From assembly GCA_944393685.1 (NCBI GenBank), contig CALYAW010000001.1, forward strand, positions 162,023-226,022: DNA of 64,000 bases, read 5' to 3'. The position numbers were made by a program, and so were the translations under genes. Under the pieces are notes generated by a model. It had not been told where the DNA came from. It did not search any database and was given only the letters and a program-made list of their open reading frames with translations. Below are positions 39,338 through 48,034 of the stretch, piece by piece. The stretch comes from an uncultured Alphaproteobacteria bacterium. GTDB lineage: Bacteria > Pseudomonadota > Alphaproteobacteria > RF32 > CAG-239. The stretch's first letter is position 1. The number at the start of each line of letters is the position of its first letter.

Positions 39338-40591
39338 ATGAATTTAAAAGATTTAAAGCAGAAATCTCCTACTGAGTTACTTACTCAGGCAGAAGAACTT
39401 GGTATTGAAGACGCCTCTTCGATGCGAGTACAAGATTTAATGTTTGCCATATTAAAAAAAGTTGCAGGAGAAGATCAAACTATTTATGGAGAAGGAACAA
39501 TAGAAGTTCTTCAAGATGGTTTTGGTTTTTTAAGATCGGCACAATCCAATTATTTAGCAGGGCCAGATGATATATATGTATCACCAGCACAAGTAAAAAA
39601 ATACGGATTAAGAACAGGAGATACGGTTGAGGGGGAAATTCGTTCACCAAAAGATAATGAACGTTATTTTGCTCTTACCAAGGTAAATAAAATAAATTTT
39701 GAAGATCCGGAAAAATCAAAACTAAGAGTTAATTTTGATAATTTAACACCTCTTTATCCTACAAAGAAACTCAATTTTGATATTATATGCGGAGACAAGG
39801 ACTATACCACACGCGTTATAGATTTGATTTCTCCGCAAGGAAAGGGACAAAGAGGATTGATTGTAGCGCCTCCTCGAACAGGTAAAACGGTCATGCTTCA
39901 AAATATAGCCCATGCGATAGCGGCCAATCATCCAGAGTGTTATCTTATGGTTCTTCTGATAGATGAACGACCTGAAGAAGTAACCGATATGACACGTTCG
40001 GTCAAAGGAGAAGTTATATCATCGACATTTGATGAACCGGCAACACGTCATGTTCAAGTTGCCGAAATGGTAATAGAAAAAGCCAAACGCTTAGTTGAAA
40101 CTAAAAAAGATGTTGTTATTTTGTTAGATTCTATTACACGTTTAGGACGAGCTTACAACACGGTTATTCCATCATCAGGAAAAGTTTTGACCGGAGGTGT
40201 AGATGCAAACGCGCTTCAAAGACCAAAGAGATTGTTAGGTGCAGCAAGAAATGTAGAAGAAGGAGGTTCTTTAACCATAATTGCGACGGCACTAATTGAT
40301 ACAGGATCTCGTATGGATGAGGTAATTTTTGAAGAATTTAAAGGCACAGGTAATTCAGAAATCATTCTTGACCGCAAATTAACAGATAAACGTTTATTTC
40401 CGACCATTGATATTACCCGTTCAGGAACAAGAAAAGAAGAACTTCTTGTTGATAAAGATAGATTATCAAAAATGTGGGTTCTTCGTCGAGTCCTTATGCA
40501 AATGGGTATGACGGATGGTATGGAATTTTTGCTTGATAAGCTCAAAAATTCTAAAGACAACGAAGATTTCTTTAATACCATGAATTCCTAA
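39338..40591 (+). CDS. rho: Transcription termination factor Rho
   Basis: Hexameric RNA-dependent helicase. The N-terminal Rho domain begins [20 protein letters not shown]. The cold-shock-like RNA-binding domain has [22 protein letters not shown]. Walker A is [11 protein letters not shown] near 185, Walker B is [16 protein letters not shown] near 263. [13 protein letters not shown] and [11 protein letters not shown] (R-loop) follow. Length 417 aa, normal. First gene right of the putative origin. Confidence 0.97.
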
Positions 40592-40600
40592 AAATAAAAA

Positions 40601-40628
40601 ATCGGCTATAAAAGGCCGATTTTTTTTA
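40601..40628 (+). terminator. Rho-independent terminator after rho
   Basis: ATCGGC, loop TATAAAAG, GCCGAT followed by eight T. It separates rho from the ATP-grasp locus. Confidence 0.9.
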
Positions 40629-40646: not shown

Positions 40647-40676
40647 TTGACTTTTTTATTTTATGTTTACTATCAT
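40647..40676 (+). promoter_or_regulatory. Probable promoter of the ATP-grasp locus
   Basis: TTGACT and TATCAT with an 18-bp spacer, about 34 bp before the first tiny ORF and directly after the rho terminator. Confidence 0.55.
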
Positions 40677-40709
40677 AAACAATAGTTAATCAATAAAGAC
40701 AAAGTAAAC

Positions 40710-40823
40710 ATGCAAAAAAACGATTCTAAATATTTGCGATTGTTGGGTTCAAACTTCAGAGGTTTGAACGGGATTATAGCTTTGTCTGTTCATTACATTT
40801 TTATCCTCATTATCAACCTCTAG
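40710..40823 (+). CDS. Tiny hydrophobic ORF A (37 aa), possible precursor or leader peptide
   Basis: ATG 40710 to TAG 40823. Polar, basic N-terminus (MQKNDSKYLRLLGSNFRG), then a hydrophobic C-terminus (IIALSVHYIFILIINL). The ribosome site is weak. The stop codon lies inside a hairpin (40817-40860). Two further tiny ORFs in the locus have the same layout, each ahead of the next start by a near-constant distance. They might be substrates of the ATP-grasp enzymes, small membrane peptides, or regulatory leaders. No homology known to me. Confidence 0.5.
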   Translation: MQKNDSKYLRLLGSNFRGLNGIIALSVHYIFILIINL

Positions 40824-40860
40824 ATGCTTTTAAAGAATATCGAGTTTTAGCATTTAGGGG
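40817..40860 (+). ncRNA. Stop-codon hairpin, copy 1
   Basis: 12-bp stem CCTCTAGATGCT/AGCATTTAGGGG with two G-U pairs and a 20-nt loop. The TAG of ORF A sits in the 5' arm and is followed at once by ATG. Compensatory differences from copies 2 and 3 support RNA structure. The next start (ORF B) is 46 nt downstream. Confidence 0.65.
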
Positions 40861-40906
40861 ATATTGGTAACAAACTTTCAAAGAAATTTTTTGAGGATAA
40901 AAATTC

Positions 40907-41002
40907 ATGTCTATAACATCACTAAATTTAAAAATAATTTTATGTTTATCTCTTTTGGGATTAGTTGCGCAAAATTTCCATATTTTGTTGCGGAGCCTCT
41001 GA
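40907..41002 (+). CDS. Tiny hydrophobic ORF B (31 aa), possible precursor or leader peptide
   Basis: ATG 40907 has a good TTGAGGAT ribosome site. The peptide MSITSLNLKIILCLSLLGLV plus 11 more residues is hydrophobic in the middle and ends in LLRSL. The TGA stop lies in the 5' arm of hairpin copy 2. It directly precedes ATP-grasp gene 1. It shares layout, not sequence, with ORFs A and C. Confidence 0.5.
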   Translation: MSITSLNLKIILCLSLLGLVAQNFHILLRSL

Positions 41003-41040
41003 GTGTTTTCATAAAAACGGAAATTTAGGCATTCAGAGGC
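40995..41040 (+). ncRNA. Stop-codon hairpin, copy 2
   Basis: 13-bp stem GCCTCTGAGTGTT/GGCATTCAGAGGC with three G-U pairs and a 20-nt loop. The TGA of ORF B is in the 5' arm and is followed at once by GTG. The ATP-grasp 1 start is 52 nt downstream. Confidence 0.7.
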
Positions 41041-41092
41041 AAATAGGATAAATTTCAAAAAAATAAGCAAAACAAAGAAAAGAGATAAAACA

Positions 41093-42910
41093 ATGGATTC
41101 AGTTAAAAAAATAAATACAGATTTAAATAATATATTAGAAAAAGTAGCATCACAATTTAGAGAACAAAACATAAGTGTTGTAATGCCGACTTATATTCCG
41201 CAACGAGGAGAGATATTACAAGAATTTTCCTCAAGAGGAGTAGAGACAGCTATATCAGGAGGAATACGAGGAGCTCAATGTTTCAAAAATATTCCACAAT
41301 ATGGTATGGAAGAAGATACCCTTCCCTATACAGATGGTTTTCCTGAATACATAACCAAGGAAATAACAAATTTATTACCTGAAGATAGATTAAAAAATCG
41401 CCAAGTAGCCGTTTTTTCTTATGTTAACAATTTAGGATGGGGAAAACATATAGAAGAAAGAGGTTTGAATACAGAGATAGTGGCAAGCGTTGAACAAAAT
41501 TTACGAGGTTTTTTTGAAGAAAAAGGAAATTTATTAAAAATTTTAGATACGGCAGGATTATCTGCTTATAAAATTCCAACGCGCCACGTTAGCAATGAAA
41601 CACCAATAGATGAATTAATAGAAGTTTATGATTCTGTCAAAAATGAAGATGGTCGAGTAGTTGTTCAAGACTGTTGTTCTGAAAATGGAAATGCCGGAGG
41701 AAAAGGAACTTTATTTATAGATTCATGTGAGGATTTTATAAAAAATATAATATCTCACAAAGGAAAACGTAAGGTAGCTCGCTTTATAAACGGATATGAG
41801 AGTAATTTATCATTTTTTGCAGGTAATTTAAAAGCTGATGAAAAAATGCTTGGTGTCAAAAAAATGAATATGACCTCACAGATGGATGCTTTTAATCCAG
41901 ATACATTAGATGCTCTTTTGAAACAGGCGTCTGAAGCGGGAATAAATGAAGATAATATCATCACGGTTGTAGGTCGCGGAACATTAAAGGCCGTTGGCGA
42001 CGAATATTTGACCAGTGGAGAAAGCAACGGTGTAGGAAACGATGTAGGTTATGTATATCCGGATGATATTCAAAAACAAATATCGGAAGTAGGCGCAAAA
42101 CTTTCTCGTTTAATGGCCTTAAGCGGACATGTTGGACTTGCCGGAGCCGATTTGATAATAGACAGAAGCGGTAAGGTATGGATAAACGAGATAAATGATC
42201 GTCAACAAGGTCCGACGGCGCAAATGTCAAAAGATGCGGAATCACAAGGTATTCCATCATTACTAAAGATATCGTTGTTAAGTAGCTTTGCGGATTTTAA
42301 GGATGATGAAGTAAGAAAAGTATTTAAAGAATTGCAAGAAAATTCAGAATCAGTTCATAAGGCTTATGCGAATAATCCTGGAGAATTTTATTTAAAAGTT
42401 CACTCAACACATCCCAAAGGGCAAAGAGCTCAAATTCAAAGAAATCTGCGCCCGGGTTATTATGAAATAAAAAAACAACAAGACGGAAATTGGATTTTTG
42501 ATTTTGCTTCTTATAAAAATCCCGGAAGTAACATTCCCTATGAAACAGATCCTGAAAAAGGAAAAGTTGTTGTAAAATTAGTTGGAGGCGATTGGAAAGT
42601 AGGAGACAGTGTCGACAACGGATCACAACTATTTCGTCTAACCGGCGTCACAAATCCGGCAAATCCGCCATTTGTAATAAAAGAAGGCAAAACAAGACTT
42701 AATGAAAGTTGGCGTCCGGTAGTAGAAGCATGTTATAATTATATGTTTGGGAAAGATTATATCCGCAAGAACCAACTTTGGAAACAAAGACATAAGAGTG
42801 ACTATCAGTATGTTGGTTGGTGTCCTGTGGCAAAACAAAGACAAGAGTTTACACCATTAAATCAAAATAGTATGCTGTGCTTAAAATTCGCAGTAGGAGG
42901 AAGGAAATAA
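41093..42910 (+). CDS. ATP-grasp ligase 1
   Basis: 605 aa. A pre-ATP-grasp-like N-terminal domain (about 1-135) has VVMPTYIPQRGEILQEF. The ATP-grasp core has the cofactor-closing Lys region FFEEKGNLLKILDTAGLSAY (near 140), the Gly-rich loop NAGGKGTLF (near 200) and the Mg-binding Glu/Asn motif VWINEINDRQQG (near 364). A C-terminal region of about 150 aa (YEIKKQQDGNWIFDF, VGDSVDNGSQLFRL) has no family I know. Such enzymes join a carboxylate to an amine via acyl-phosphate. Overall it recalls PGM1-type peptide ligases. Substrate unknown. Confidence 0.8.
   Translation: MDSVKKINTDLNNILEKVASQFREQNISVVMPTYIPQRGEILQEFSSRGVETAISGGIRGAQCFKNIPQYGMEEDTLPYTDGFPEYITKEITNLLPEDRLKNRQVAVFSYVNNLGWGKHIEERGLNTEIVASVEQNLRGFFEEKGNLLKILDTAGLSAYKIPTRHVSNETPIDELIEVYDSVKNEDGRVVVQDCCSENGNAGGKGTLFIDSCEDFIKNIISHKGKRKVARFINGYESNLSFFAGNLKADEKMLGVKKMNMTSQMDAFNPDTLDALLKQASEAGINEDNIITVVGRGTLKAVGDEYLTSGESNGVGNDVGYVYPDDIQKQISEVGAKLSRLMALSGHVGLAGADLIIDRSGKVWINEINDRQQGPTAQMSKDAESQGIPSLLKISLLSSFADFKDDEVRKVFKELQENSESVHKAYANNPGEFYLKVHSTHPKGQRAQIQRNLRPGYYEIKKQQDGNWIFDFASYKNPGSNIPYETDPEKGKVVVKLVGGDWKVGDSVDNGSQLFRLTGVTNPANPPFVIKEGKTRLNESWRPVVEACYNYMFGKDYIRKNQLWKQRHKSDYQYVGWCPVAKQRQEFTPLNQNSMLCLKFAVGGRK
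41920..42517 (+). repeat. 598-bp identical block, copy 1 (ATP-grasp 1)
   Basis: Read line by line, it is identical to 44939-45536. It covers codons for about residues 276-475, including the Mg-binding motif. Sequence on both sides is clearly diverged, so recent gene conversion is the best explanation. Confidence 0.95.
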
Positions 42911-42913
42911 ACA

Positions 42914-43870
42914 ATGAAAATAAACAAGCATAGAAGCTATGTCGGAACCACCCCCATGGGAACAGAATTAAGTATTCTCAATTATGAACTTGATTCAGAA
43001 AGAGAGGGTAAGCATGTTTATATTCAAAGCGGTATTCATGGTGGAGAAATTACACAATGGATTATTCATGAATTGTTTTTATTTTTGAAAAAGAATTTAC
43101 AACAAGGAAAAGTGACATTAGTTCCCTGTGCAAATCCTGTTTCATGGACTCAGCGAGCATATTATTCAACAAACGGGAAATTTGATTTTTATATGGGAAA
43201 GGATTGGAATCGCAATTTTCCAGGAAATCCAGAAGGAAGCATGGGAGAAAGGATAGCATCAGTTCTGTTTGAAAATGCAAAGAAGGCAGATTTTGCTATA
43301 GATTTACACACATCACGAGAATCTATACCATTTGGAATTTATTCCCGATCAGAGTATGAAAATTGGCTCAAAATAATAGGAATAAAGTATAATCAGTTTA
43401 TAGATATGAGCAAATCATCAGCATATGCCAATACCCTAAATGCCGGGTTAGATGTTGCTGGAATAAGTAATTTATGTATTGAATGTGGTAGTCACGATTC
43501 TTATGAACCACAAAACATTCATGAAGTTACGGAAGGAATAAAACGTCTTTTAGCATCATTAGAAATGATAGATACAAAACTAACCAAATCGGGACCAAAA
43601 GAAATAATAACGTTTTCAAAAACAGTCAAATACACGGCACCCAAAGGTTGTATACTACGATTGGCAAAACATTTAGGAAGCAAGATTAAAAAAGGAGAAG
43701 ATTTGTTCTATTGTTTTGACAACAATGAGCTTGGTGCTGTGTTAGCGGTTCAATCCGAACATGATGGAGTATTATTTAAGGCGTCGCCGACACACATTTA
43801 TTGGAGTGGAGACGATGTAATTCAACTTTTGCTGGATGAAGATACAAAAATATTGACAACCTCAATATAG
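42914..43870 (+). CDS. M14/AspA-AstE-type zinc hydrolase
   Basis: 318 aa, starting 3 nt after ATP-grasp 1 with an AGGAGGAAGG ribosome site. Zinc and substrate motifs of the succinylglutamate desuccinylase/aspartoacylase group are all visible: GIHGGEITQW (HxxE, near 38), DWNRNFPG (near 96), FAIDLHTS (His, near 127) and CIECGSH (Glu, near 190). A beta-barrel C-terminus follows (APKGCILRLAKHLGSKIKKG). AspA-type enzymes often sit beside RimK ATP-grasp ligases. Here it may trim or undo an amide made by the ligases. Confidence 0.85.
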   Translation: MKINKHRSYVGTTPMGTELSILNYELDSEREGKHVYIQSGIHGGEITQWIIHELFLFLKKNLQQGKVTLVPCANPVSWTQRAYYSTNGKFDFYMGKDWNRNFPGNPEGSMGERIASVLFENAKKADFAIDLHTSRESIPFGIYSRSEYENWLKIIGIKYNQFIDMSKSSAYANTLNAGLDVAGISNLCIECGSHDSYEPQNIHEVTEGIKRLLASLEMIDTKLTKSGPKEIITFSKTVKYTAPKGCILRLAKHLGSKIKKGEDLFYCFDNNELGAVLAVQSEHDGVLFKASPTHIYWSGDDVIQLLLDEDTKILTTSI

Positions 43871-43907
43871 CACGTTTATCATTTAATAACAAAATAAAGG
43901 AAGCCAA

Positions 43908-44015
43908 ATGAAAATTTTGAATAAAATATATCAAAATATTTCGGCACCGGAAGTAGCTATTTTCGGTGCGGCTTCTTATGTTTTCTTTTCTTATTACTTC
44001 TTTATCGGCTTCTAG
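43908..44015 (+). CDS. Tiny hydrophobic ORF C (35 aa), possible precursor or leader peptide
   Basis: ATG 43908 has a strong ATAAAGGAAGCC site. The N-terminus MKILNKIYQNISAPEVAIFG is followed by an aromatic hydrophobic tail (SYVFFSYYFFIGF). The TAG is in hairpin copy 3. It precedes ATP-grasp 2 as ORF B precedes ATP-grasp 1. The tail composition is unusual, with seven Phe and four Tyr in the 35 residues. Confidence 0.55.
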   Translation: MKILNKIYQNISAPEVAIFGAASYVFFSYYFFIGF

Positions 44016-44055
44016 GTGTTTCAATCCATTTGAGGCGGGCTTAGGCATCTGGAAG
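44009..44055 (+). ncRNA. Stop-codon hairpin, copy 3
   Basis: 12-bp stem CTTCTAGGTGTT/GGCATCTGGAAG with G-U pairs and a 23-nt loop. The TAG of ORF C is in the 5' arm, followed at once by GTG. A T-rich stretch (TTATTTTTTAT) follows, so this copy could also attenuate transcription. The ATP-grasp 2 start is 56 nt downstream. Confidence 0.65.
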
Positions 44056-44111
44056 GTTATTTTTTATAAGTCCGCGGCGAACAAGTGGAAAAACGATAAA
44101 GAAGAAAAACA

Positions 44112-45866
44112 ATGTCAAAAATACAAAAACTCAATAAAGATGTAAATCTCCTCATGGCAGGAGTTATTGATAATTTTAAACAAAACAATATTAGTCTGGT
44201 CATGCCCACATACGTTCCACAGAGGGGTGAAATATTACAAGAATTTGCCAGAGCCGGAGTAAAAACATTTATAGCAGGAGGATATCAAAATGCGCGCACT
44301 TTTCCGGAGGTTCCGCAAAAAGGATTAGAAAGAGATACAATAGAATTTATTTCTTCTTTTCCTTTACATATAAGCAAACAAATTGCAGAAACAATTCCTG
44401 TAGAAATTTTACAAAACGGAAAGATAGCAATTTTCACATACGAAGTTGATTTTGGGTGGAAAGATTTAATTTTAAATCGCGGTCTTAATACGGAAATATC
44501 AGCCACATTAGAACACAATCAGAGAGGTTATTTTGAGGAAAAAGGAAATCTTACTCATATATTAGATAAGGCAGGATTATCAGCTTATAAGATTCCCACA
44601 CGACGCGTAAATTCTTCAACACCGATAGATGAATTAATAGAAATATATGATATGCTTAAAAGTGAGGATGGTCGAGTAGTTGTTCAAGACTGTTGTTCCG
44701 AAAGCAGTAATACAGCGGGCAAAGGTACCCAATTTTTCAATGATTGCACAGCATTTGTAAAAAACATTATAGAGAGCGGAACAGAACGCAAGGTGGCTCG
44801 CTTTATTGACGGATATGAAAGTAATTTGTCTTTTTTTGCAGGTAATATTCTCCCTGCACAAGGTATATCAGGAGCATTGAAAATAGAACTAACACCGCAA
44901 ATGAATCGTTTCAATCCTCATACATTGGAAATTTTAACGAAACAGGCGTCTGAAGCGGGAATAAATGAAGATAATATCATCACGGTTGTAGGTCGCGGAA
45001 CATTAAAGGCCGTTGGCGACGAATATTTGACCAGTGGAGAAAGCAACGGTGTAGGAAACGATGTAGGTTATGTATATCCGGATGATATTCAAAAACAAAT
45101 ATCGGAAGTAGGCGCAAAACTTTCTCGTTTAATGGCCTTAAGCGGACATGTTGGACTTGCCGGAGCCGATTTGATAATAGACAGAAGCGGTAAGGTATGG
45201 ATAAACGAGATAAATGATCGTCAACAAGGTCCGACGGCGCAAATGTCAAAAGATGCGGAATCACAAGGTATTCCATCATTACTAAAGATATCGTTGTTAA
45301 GTAGCTTTGCGGATTTTAAGGATGATGAAGTAAGAAAAGTATTTAAAGAATTGCAAGAAAATTCAGAATCAGTTCATAAGGCTTATGCGAATAATCCTGG
45401 AGAATTTTATTTAAAAGTTCACTCAACACATCCCAAAGGGCAAAGAGCTCAAATTCAAAGAAATCTGCGCCCGGGTTATTATGAAATAAAAAAACAACAA
45501 GACGGAAATTGGATTTTTGATTTTGCTTCTTATAAAGGATTAAGCAGTAAGTCTTTCTACGAAACAGACCCTGAAAAGGGAAGAGTTATTATCAAAATAT
45601 CAGGAGGCGATTGGAAAGTAGGAGACAGTGTCGACAACGGATCACAACTGTTTCGCCTTAATGGCGTCACAAATCCGGCAAATCCGCCATTTGTAATAAA
45701 AGAAGGCAAAACAAGACTTAATGAAAGTTGGCGCCCGATAGTAAAAGCATGTTATGATTATATGTTTGGGAAAGGCTATATATACCGTAATCCGCTTCAT
45801 CAAAAGCGAAACGCAATCAAGAACAAAATGATTATTTCTATGGTTCAGAGTTTGCGTAGCAAATAG
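44112..45866 (+). CDS. ATP-grasp ligase 2
   Basis: 584 aa, a paralogue of ATP-grasp 1 with the same domain order: VVMPTYVPQRGEILQEF-like N-terminus (here LVMPTYVPQRGEILQEF), Gly-rich loop NTAGKGTQF and Mg-binding INEINDRQQG. N-terminal and early catalytic regions are only moderately similar to copy 1, while about residues 277-475 are encoded by identical DNA. The C-terminus is shorter and different (YRNPLHQKRNAIKNKM). Two diverged ligases with a shared core may act on different acceptors. Its 3' end overlaps the convergent HAD gene by 22 nt. Confidence 0.8.
   Translation: MSKIQKLNKDVNLLMAGVIDNFKQNNISLVMPTYVPQRGEILQEFARAGVKTFIAGGYQNARTFPEVPQKGLERDTIEFISSFPLHISKQIAETIPVEILQNGKIAIFTYEVDFGWKDLILNRGLNTEISATLEHNQRGYFEEKGNLTHILDKAGLSAYKIPTRRVNSSTPIDELIEIYDMLKSEDGRVVVQDCCSESSNTAGKGTQFFNDCTAFVKNIIESGTERKVARFIDGYESNLSFFAGNILPAQGISGALKIELTPQMNRFNPHTLEILTKQASEAGINEDNIITVVGRGTLKAVGDEYLTSGESNGVGNDVGYVYPDDIQKQISEVGAKLSRLMALSGHVGLAGADLIIDRSGKVWINEINDRQQGPTAQMSKDAESQGIPSLLKISLLSSFADFKDDEVRKVFKELQENSESVHKAYANNPGEFYLKVHSTHPKGQRAQIQRNLRPGYYEIKKQQDGNWIFDFASYKGLSSKSFYETDPEKGRVIIKISGGDWKVGDSVDNGSQLFRLNGVTNPANPPFVIKEGKTRLNESWRPIVKACYDYMFGKGYIYRNPLHQKRNAIKNKMIISMVQSLRSK
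44939..45536 (+). repeat. 598-bp identical block, copy 2 (ATP-grasp 2)
   Basis: Partner of 41920-42517 at a constant offset of 3019 bp. A further short, nearly identical patch follows (AGGCGATTGGAAAGTAGGAG), pointing to a patchy conversion tract. Confidence 0.95.
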
Positions 45867-46513
45867 TTTTTAATATCTTTCATATTGTAGAAGATTTCAG
45901 AAACGCCAATGTTTTTGATTTCTTCTTCAATATACATATTTTGATATAAATCACTTCCCAAAAAAGCAATAACATTCATATTGGCACGAACCCCGGCAGT
46001 CATTCCTGCTAAAGAATCTTCGACAACAAAACAATCTTTATATTCATATTTCATACTATCTGCGGCTAAAAGATATAAATCAGGTTCAGGTTTTCCGTGT
46101 TTAACCATATCCGCGCAAAAAACGTTTTTTTCAGGAAAATATTTTTCAATACCAACCATTTGTATTTTCTTTTTTGTTTTAGAAGAAATTCCACCGGTAG
46201 CAATACATTGATCAAAATTTTCTATTTTGAAAATATCTTCGATTCCTTTTGTAAGAGCAAAGCCTTTACCCATTTTTTGTAAATCTCGAGATACAATCTC
46301 GGCCCAAAATTCATCATCGGTTTTAATTCCTATTTTTTCCAGGACTTCTTTTTTTGTTTTGTCGCTCATTCCTGCCAAAAAAGAAATAGTTGTCTTAAAA
46401 TCCCAATTCAGACCAAATTTTTCATTTAGAAGCTCCATTCTGTTTTGGAGCCAAAGCTTTTCCGTGTCGGCGATAACGCCATCAAAATCCCATATAATTA
46501 GTTTTTTTTCCAT
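45845..46513 (-). CDS. HAD hydrolase, beta-phosphoglucomutase-like
   Basis: 222 aa. Motif I is IIWDFDGVIADTEKLW, motif II is CIATGGISSKTKKKI, motif III has Lys in HGKPEPDLYLLAA and motif IV is CFVVEDSLAGMTAG. The cap is helical, as in subclass I phosphatases acting on sugar or nucleoside phosphates. It closes the ATP-grasp locus from the opposite strand. A link to that system is not shown. Confidence 0.88.
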   Translation of the reverse strand: MEKKLIIWDFDGVIADTEKLWLQNRMELLNEKFGLNWDFKTTISFLAGMSDKTKKEVLEKIGIKTDDEFWAEIVSRDLQKMGKGFALTKGIEDIFKIENFDQCIATGGISSKTKKKIQMVGIEKYFPEKNVFCADMVKHGKPEPDLYLLAADSMKYEYKDCFVVEDSLAGMTAGVRANMNVIAFLGSDLYQNMYIEEEIKNIGVSEIFYNMKDIKNYLLRKL

Positions 46514-46690: not shown

Positions 46691-48034
46691 ATGAACAATC
46701 AGACAATTTATGCTCTATCGACAGTGTTTGGCAAATCAGGAGTGGCGATAATTCGTATTTCCGGATCAAAAGCCGCAGATATAATTTCGACAATGACGGA
46801 CATGGATAAAACAAAAGTAAAGCCGCGTTATGCCCATTTTGTAAGATTATATCATGCGAAGTCAAAAGAGTTGTTAGATAAATGTCTTCTTTTGTATTTT
46901 AAGGGTCCCAATTCTTTTACGGGAGAAGATGTAATAGAACTTCAAATACATGGATCCATGGCTGTAATAGGTGCGGTTATGGATTCACTTGCCCAAATGG
47001 AAGACTATCGCTTAGCAGAACCGGGAGAGTTTTCAAAACGAGCTTTTTATAATAATAAGATGGATTTGACAGAAGCCGAAGGGCTTGCCGATTTAATCGA
47101 CGCAGAGACATCGGAACAGCAAAAATATGCCATACGTCAGATGGATGGGGGATTAAAAAATTTATATGAAGGTTGGCGAGAAACATTGGTAGCAATTTTA
47201 TCACATCTTGAAGCCTACATAGATTTTCCAGAAGAAGATATTCCACAAGATATTGCATCGAATATGGAAAACACTGTATTTAAACTAAAAGAAGACATAA
47301 AAAATCATCTGCAAGGAGATAATATAGGAGAACGTTTGAGAGAAGGTTTTCGAGTAACTATTATAGGATCTCCAAACGCAGGAAAATCAAGTCTACTGAA
47401 TCAGATAGCAAAACGAGAAGCTGTAATTGTTTCTGACATAGCCGGTACCACGCGAGATGCAATAGATATTCATTTGGATTTAGGGGGGTATCCGGTAATG
47501 TTTACGGATACGGCGGGTTTGCGAGAAACATCAGAAGAAATAGAACAAAAAGGCATAGCTCTGGCTTATAAGAAAGCTAAGCAGGCAGATTTGGTTATTT
47601 ATTTGTTTGATGCCTTAAAAGATTGTGCTCAAGATATTGAAAAATATAAAAAAGAATTTTCTGATAAATTAGTTGTTGTCGCTAATAAACAAGATAAGAT
47701 TTCATCGGAACGCATAGCAGAACTGCAAAAGGCGGGATGTTTGGTTATATCAGCAAAGCAAAATACAGGTACGGATAAGCTGTTATCTGTCATCAAAGAA
47801 CATATAAGTTCGCGTTTTACATCAAATTCCGGCTTGTTAATAAGTCGTCGTCGATATAGAGAAGCCTTGAAAAACACGCTTGAATTTTTGAATGATTTTA
47901 ATTTTGAGAAAGAGATAGAATTGACGGCGGAAGATATACGTTTAGCTGCGCGAGAAATAGGCAAGATTACGGGTCGGATAGAGGTAGAAGAAATTCTTGA
48001 TAAGATTTTCGGATCATTTTGTATCGGAAAATAA
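46691..48034 (+). CDS. mnmE: tRNA uridine-5-carboxymethylaminomethyl modification GTPase MnmE
   Basis: Works with MnmG to modify U34. N-terminal folate-binding domain [20 protein letters not shown]. The G domain has [12 protein letters not shown] (G1, near 222), DIAGTTRD (G2), DTAGLRE (G3) and NKQD (G4). The C-terminal CIGK holds the catalytic Cys. 447 aa. GAGGTG precedes ATG 46691. The 177-bp gap before it shows no gene. Confidence 0.97.

Follow-up and report, generated by a model that had tools for sequence, protein, structure and literature searches.

In the window analysed here, a stretch of 64,000 nucleotides from an uncultured Alphaproteobacteria bacterium (GTDB lineage RF32; CAG-239; contig CALYAW010000001.1), a cassette of genes for two ATP-grasp ligases, LigA and LigB, and one AspA-type hydrolase lies between rho and mnmE. 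The sequence indicates, with high probability, that translational switches operated by the ribosome, formed by tiny leader open reading frames (ORFs), control both ligases. Hence the tiny genes most likely are built-in translation switches rather than sources of peptide products, and the anatomy, as predicted, is that of a translational attenuator or coupler. Below, coordinates are positions in the window, on the plus strand unless noted, and the labels G and L followed by a number denote genomes and loci, respectively, in the comparative set.

ORF1 (40710..40823, 37 amino acids, TAG stop) and ORF2 (40907..41002, 31 amino acids, TGA stop) precede LigA, and ORF3 (43908..44015, 35 amino acids, TAG stop) precedes LigB. 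Each is a short leader ORF that has translation signals of its own and stands upstream of the gene to be regulated. The original prediction, made from the letters of the window, had listed three hydrophobic ORFs of 31–37 amino acids on one strand and the order "tiny ORF then ligase" occurring twice; both observations are correct, with two tiny ORFs standing in series ahead of LigA. It had also suggested looking for tiny ORFs upstream of homologous ligases, and conserved ones were found in related genomes: ORF1 is conserved in L013, L019, L020 and L021, and ORF3 in G019 and G040.

All three tiny ORFs terminate within a stem-loop of 13–14 bp, at 40815..40861 (stem-loop 1, spanning the ORF1 stop and showing covariation), 40994..41040 (stem-loop 2) and 44007..44056 (stem-loop 3). 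In the leader alignment from several genomes the helix comprises 14 pairs; 91% of cells are paired, and 11 of the 14 pairs show compensatory changes, that is, changes on both sides. Hardly any shuffle (0/500) matches these values, which collapse in slid registers. The position of the stop codon shifts within the stem-loop, and therefore the latter is conserved independently of it. R1, the covariance model built from the stem-loop, matches the genome at exactly three places, all in the cassette (5.6e-8, 1.2e-9 and 1.4e-6 for stem-loops 1, 2 and 3); a dispersed repeat or a mobile element was rejected, there being just three copies genome-wide. In Rfam no leader or riboswitch model was matched (best E about 1, below the gathering scores), and the literature searched contained no description of such a leader.

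Folding of the leaders revealed an outer helix as well, in which the Shine-Dalgarno (SD) sequence of the next gene is bound by a segment of the preceding tiny ORF. The anti-SD of ORF1, ATTTTTATCCTCA (40797..40809), pairs with the SD region of ORF2 (40892..40904) at -15.7 kcal/mol and is the best of 32 tails for that SD. The anti-SD of ORF2, TTTATCTCTTTT (40945..40956), pairs with the SD region of LigA (41078..41089) at -17.1 kcal/mol, and that of ORF3 (43997..44007) with the SD region of LigB (44094..44104) at -18.1 kcal/mol, the letters being CTTCTTTATCG/CGATAAAGAAG. The predicted unpaired probability of the SD region is 0.00 in the free RNA and 0.33 with the anti-SD masked for ORF2, and 0.07 and 0.56, respectively, for LigA; for LigB it is 0.13 and, with the anti-SD alone masked, 0.17. 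The downstream SD is predicted to be paired with an upstream segment that a ribosome on the leader could cover. The SD of ORF1 itself (GACAAAG) is able to pair with CTTTGTC inside ORF1 (both within 40700-40790), and the same is seen, partly by eye, in G019 and L021; this may possibly represent self-gating.

To assess the specificity of the pairing, 32 leader/gene pairs covering every cassette class (described below) were used, and the cognate tail/SD duplex was compared with permuted partners in 20,000 permutations. The cognate mean is -14.1 kcal/mol versus -9.3 kcal/mol for the permuted partners (sd 0.45, z -10.7), and no permutation attains the cognate mean. Since cognate partners beat swapped ones, the pairing has been retained through differing letters. 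Thus, L029 has CATATATTGTT/AACAATATATG, differing on both sides from other loci, and the pairing is kept in G039 (CTCTTGATTATC/GATAATTGAGAG) and G002 (CTCTTGATC/GATCAAGAG). Moreover, the real tails outperform within-sequence dinucleotide shuffles in most pairs of class A, the one to which the window belongs. In each of the 32 pairs, 66–114 nt separate the leader stop from the next start. Masking the anti-SD, as a ribosome would, increases the mean SD exposure predicted by ensemble folding of these pairs from 0.23 to 0.47.

As the comparison of sequences shows, the tiny ORFs, the stem-loops and the anti-SD pairing are present and conserved, and we suggest the following mechanism. When the 3' part of a leader is not translated, anti-SD pairing would leave the next gene with a closed ribosome-binding site, presumably blocking initiation in vivo; a ribosome translating, pausing or stalling on the 3' half of the leader would open the next SD. 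Ahead of LigA two switches would be chained, with ORF1 opening ORF2 and ORF2 opening LigA, while LigB would have a single switch, ORF3, with its own promoter-like site. Lying between the arms, the stem-loop would probably make the effective loop shorter, and a terminating ribosome would reopen it. We infer that the switch responds to the speed of the ribosome, for instance, upon a shortage of charged tRNA or binding of an exit-tunnel ligand, rather than providing plain coupling.

Several observations weigh against this scheme. The exposure gain upon masking exceeds 0.1 in just 18 of the 32 pairs, and in two pairs (ORF2 of L021 and ORF2 of G106) foreign duplexes are at least as good as the cognate one. 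The distance of the anti-SD from the stop varies (from about -14 to -70), and therefore no one stall site stands out. The leaders are rich in Leu, Ile, Ser and Phe, in part a consequence of the anti-SDs being pyrimidine-rich, and no one amino acid forms a consistent repeat from leader to leader. Further, the amide product that ligase and hydrolase would share is deduced from the family names alone. The idea that the switch senses one particular amino acid was rejected for want of a consistent run across leaders, although one branch has runs of Cys: MMMCCCC, YCCC and YCSC are seen in the leaders of L029–L032 (CCCC in L031, YCCC in L030 and L032). These runs of Cys codons are reminiscent of amino-acid attenuators and may hint at amino-acid sensing in this branch.

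The R1 model was run over 35 genomes of the genus and 153 genomes of the order, the order-level matches being taken at E<=1e-4. Strong matches precede four unrelated kinds of operons. Class A consists of an ATP-grasp ligase and an M14-type hydrolase; class B, of Amidoligase_2 (PF12224) and N-formylglutamate amidohydrolase (PF05013); class C, of a 612-aa protein and an S66 LD-carboxypeptidase, the S66 gene being absent downstream in G047 and G011; class D, found in G108, of a GNAT protein (PF00583) and an M20 deacylase (PF01546), with no ligase. The sole order-level match with a neighbour of another kind precedes a recombinase-like gene in G058 (L127); it looks unrelated and was set aside. Among 385 genomes sampled from the class, a single one outside the order has the leader (G220).

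The same slot, rho-HAD-mnmE, is occupied by class A in the window, G019, G020, G040, G043 and G144, by class B in G106, by class C in G143, G146, G147 and G148, and by class D in G108. Within the genus, cassette classes are found in 7, 6 and 3 of the 35 genomes with no overlap, the chance of this being about 0.055, which is not significant alone; moreover, G108 holds both A and D, and hence we do not rely on mutual exclusivity of the classes. ATP-grasp, amidoligase and GNAT enzymes make amide bonds, and AspA, N-formylglutamate amidohydrolase, S66 and M20 enzymes cleave them. The cassettes would then encode a writer/eraser pair for some amide, with the roles filled by different families, and in class A the ligase and the hydrolase would make and break the same amide. 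The class C protein (611–617 aa, MSKYSQAV..KKPEFSYL) of L079, L084, L120–L122 and L124 has no match in Pfam, NCBIfam or PDB, and homology to the ATP-grasp ligases was rejected by hhalign; it is a candidate for a new amide-forming enzyme.

The original prediction suggested ribosomal-peptide tailoring or peptide conjugation. In this model the tiny ORFs encode substrates to which the cassettes attach amino acids, as in ribosomally synthesized and post-translationally modified peptides (RiPPs) or in PGM1-like tailoring, and the hydrolase trims the product or reverses the reaction. We consider it unlikely, although tiny ORFs do stand ahead of all four cassette types, some leader peptides appear by eye to be related across classes (FGK-Y..TSE-like starts), and the ratio of non-synonymous to synonymous differences (pN/pS) in most leader pairs is below 1 (0.15–0.66), with YLRLL and LRSL retained through synonymous changes. 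Between close relatives the ratio spans 0.15 to 1.4, being mostly 0.3–0.7, and therefore the leaders look translated, but only weakly constrained. The N-terminal halves, for which a role as substrate or arrest peptide is still conceivable, are strongly divergent, whereas the 3' halves are accounted for by RNA, being antisense to the next SD and having their ends dictated by the stem-loop. Asp and Glu together make up about 2.6% of residues, with neither present in 12 of the 32 leaders, hence graspetide-type side-chain links are mostly impossible. The tiny ORFs do not have the conserved, ligatable core residues of a graspetide or RiPP precursor, and this type was rejected as the main model because acidic residues are few and RNA pairing accounts for the conservation of the 3' ends. 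All leader codon positions are enriched in T, the second one most (0.48); since the anti-SD is pyrimidine-rich, the hydrophobicity of the leaders is in part its by-product. The cassette has neither a transporter nor a leader peptidase, and class D, lacking a ligase, has the same type of leader. Finally, there exist ligase homologues with wholly different upstream sequences; ligase loci without tiny ORFs had been named beforehand as evidence against peptide tailoring, and the Micavibrio-like homologues do not have this leader type. A variant in which the tiny peptide is a shared substrate or a bound cofactor of four interchangeable writer and eraser cassettes, the switch coupling its synthesis to theirs, seems unlikely as well.

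Two further explanations were considered. A leader peptide followed by a stem-loop is the classic layout of transcription attenuation, where the stem-loop would be an intrinsic terminator or a Rho gate and translation of the leader would decide on read-through. There is a short T run after stem-loop 3, but no U-tract follows stem-loops 1 and 2 or most of the homologues, no terminator was called at any of the three stem-loops, and the covarying partner is the downstream SD rather than an alternative terminator arm. With U-tracts lacking, terminator or trp-type attenuation was rejected as very improbable, while Rho-dependent polarity may yet accompany the leader switch as a side effect. Least probable of all is that the ORFs are spurious and untranslated, overlying a structured 5' untranslated region that binds a protein or a metabolite. 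The RNA is strongly conserved, including parts of the loop, and the ratio of non-synonymous to synonymous substitution rates (dN/dS) of the leaders is not uniformly low, as such an RNA would have it; yet a start codon with a purine-rich upstream region, a frame of 18–50 codons and the stop position recur at dozens of loci in several genera, and change is biased towards synonymous sites in most leader pairs.

The six ORFs of the cassette, all on the plus strand, fall into the interval between rho (39338-40591) and a HAD gene (45845-46513, minus strand), beyond which lies mnmE (46691-48034). The rho terminator (~40596-40625) is directly followed by a promoter-like site, TTGACT-N18-TATCAT (40647..40676, 10/12 match), 5' of ORF1, as the original prediction had it. 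A second site, TTGACA-N18-TATCAT (43853..43882, 11/12 match, the best in the region), lies 5' of ORF3 and LigB. These are the two top-scoring plus-strand sites, each directly 5' of a leader. By eye, a TTGACA-type sequence matching the second one is visible in G019 and G040, and leaders at other loci are likewise preceded by TTGACA-type sites.

LigA (41093..42910, 605 aa, metal motif INEIND) is a predicted ATP-grasp amide ligase, and LigB (44112..45866, 584 aa) is its paralogue with 73% identity. The best Pfam match of both is YheC/D ATP-grasp; this match and that to LdmS (NF047900) are weak, below the Pfam and NCBIfam cut-offs, respectively. In the same profile collections the ligases have no match to the RimK, PGM1 or MvdC/D families. 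The best PDB sequence match is 7r8p. An ATP-grasp fold is seen in the AlphaFold model, built with 26 relatives as input (predicted local distance difference test, pLDDT, 90). In 26 sequences the residues of the metal and nucleotide sites, D353, E366, N368, K227 and R295, do not vary; both the fold and the metal-ligand motif that define the superfamily are present. The two paralogous ATP-grasp ligases of the original prediction are thereby confirmed, as is its AspA/AstE-type zinc hydrolase. The latter (42914..43870, 318 aa, predicted M14 fold) matches PF24827 AstE_AspA_cat above the Pfam cut-off (E=1.3e-18) and contains the zinc motif H-x-x-E...H; H42, E45, H132 and E190, as well as the HGGE and DLHT motifs, are invariant. 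Its model (pLDDT 91) resembles structures of the aspartoacylase family, among them DoeB/EutE and CphZ, a cyanophycin dipeptide hydrolase.

A block of 598 bp is identical in LigA and LigB (41920-42517 and 44939-45536), with flanks 55–80% identical; the paralogues in G040 have no comparable block, the longest identical run being 55. The block is best read as a recent gene conversion, the alternative being an assembly artefact of the metagenome-assembled genome (MAG).

The ligase is present in 7 of the 35 genomes of the genus. Among 20 other stretches fetched downstream of rho in this genus, nearly all have rho, HAD and mnmE without the cassette, the exception being G003, where mnmE is not within the stretch fetched. 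This distribution supports the earlier suggestion that the cassette of two ATP-grasp ligases, hydrolase and tiny ORFs is an accessory insertion between rho and mnmE. The genome collection contains 27 ligase loci, all from MAGs titled Alphaproteobacteria, Proteobacteria or Micavibrio. An M14-type gene adjoins the ligase in all 27, hence the ligase and the hydrolase form one unit.

In the Micavibrio-like ligase homologues (L034–L040) the tiny-ORF leader is replaced by a different conserved upstream element, and the M14-type gene is on the opposite strand. The element GTGCCAATGGCCCGCGG...GGGGGCGCCC...AGGCAGGTTAAGTAACGGCGAAC... is strongly conserved and shared by L034, L035, L036, L037, L039 and L040, about 100–300 bases upstream of the ligase, and has no Rfam match in L035 or L037. 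In L042–L046, another, Arg-rich tiny ORF (e.g. MMNIEILHIESIRLSLRRSLGAVILF) is situated 73–97 bases upstream of the ligase, and a stretch of the CTTTCTCTCC type within it is able to pair with GGAGGGAAA, the SD of the ligase. A switch of the same logic could thus operate there with an unrelated leader.

Like the ermC/cat-type translational attenuators, the system has a short leader ORF, an SD hidden by pairing and a leader ribosome that would open it, with no terminator required. In contrast to them, the anti-SD is part of the leader coding sequence, the arms are separated by the stem-loop holding the stop codon, units can occur as a chain of two, and the regulated genes are cassettes of amide enzymes. 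The ligases resemble YheC/D and LdmS (L-Asp-L-Met ligase) in the ATP-grasp core and the alignable metal-site region, but differ by an N-terminal domain of their own and by a beta-rich C-terminal domain. The hydrolase shares the domain, zinc motifs and modelled fold with the AspA/AstE family, but has no close relative among characterised members, being only about 14–22% identical to solved structures, and always stands beside the ligase. The title of a study of amidoligase context families by Iyer et al. reportedly lists three superfamilies that match three of the four cassette writers.

Four non-homologous pairs of enzymes, of types that form and cleave amides, share the leader and can share the slot, which suggests alternative solutions to one need. 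The leaders, some of them arranged in tandem, appear to be cis-acting RNAs of a family not yet described, within an uncultured alphaproteobacterial family from gut and rumen, and further members could be sought through the RNA instead of the protein.

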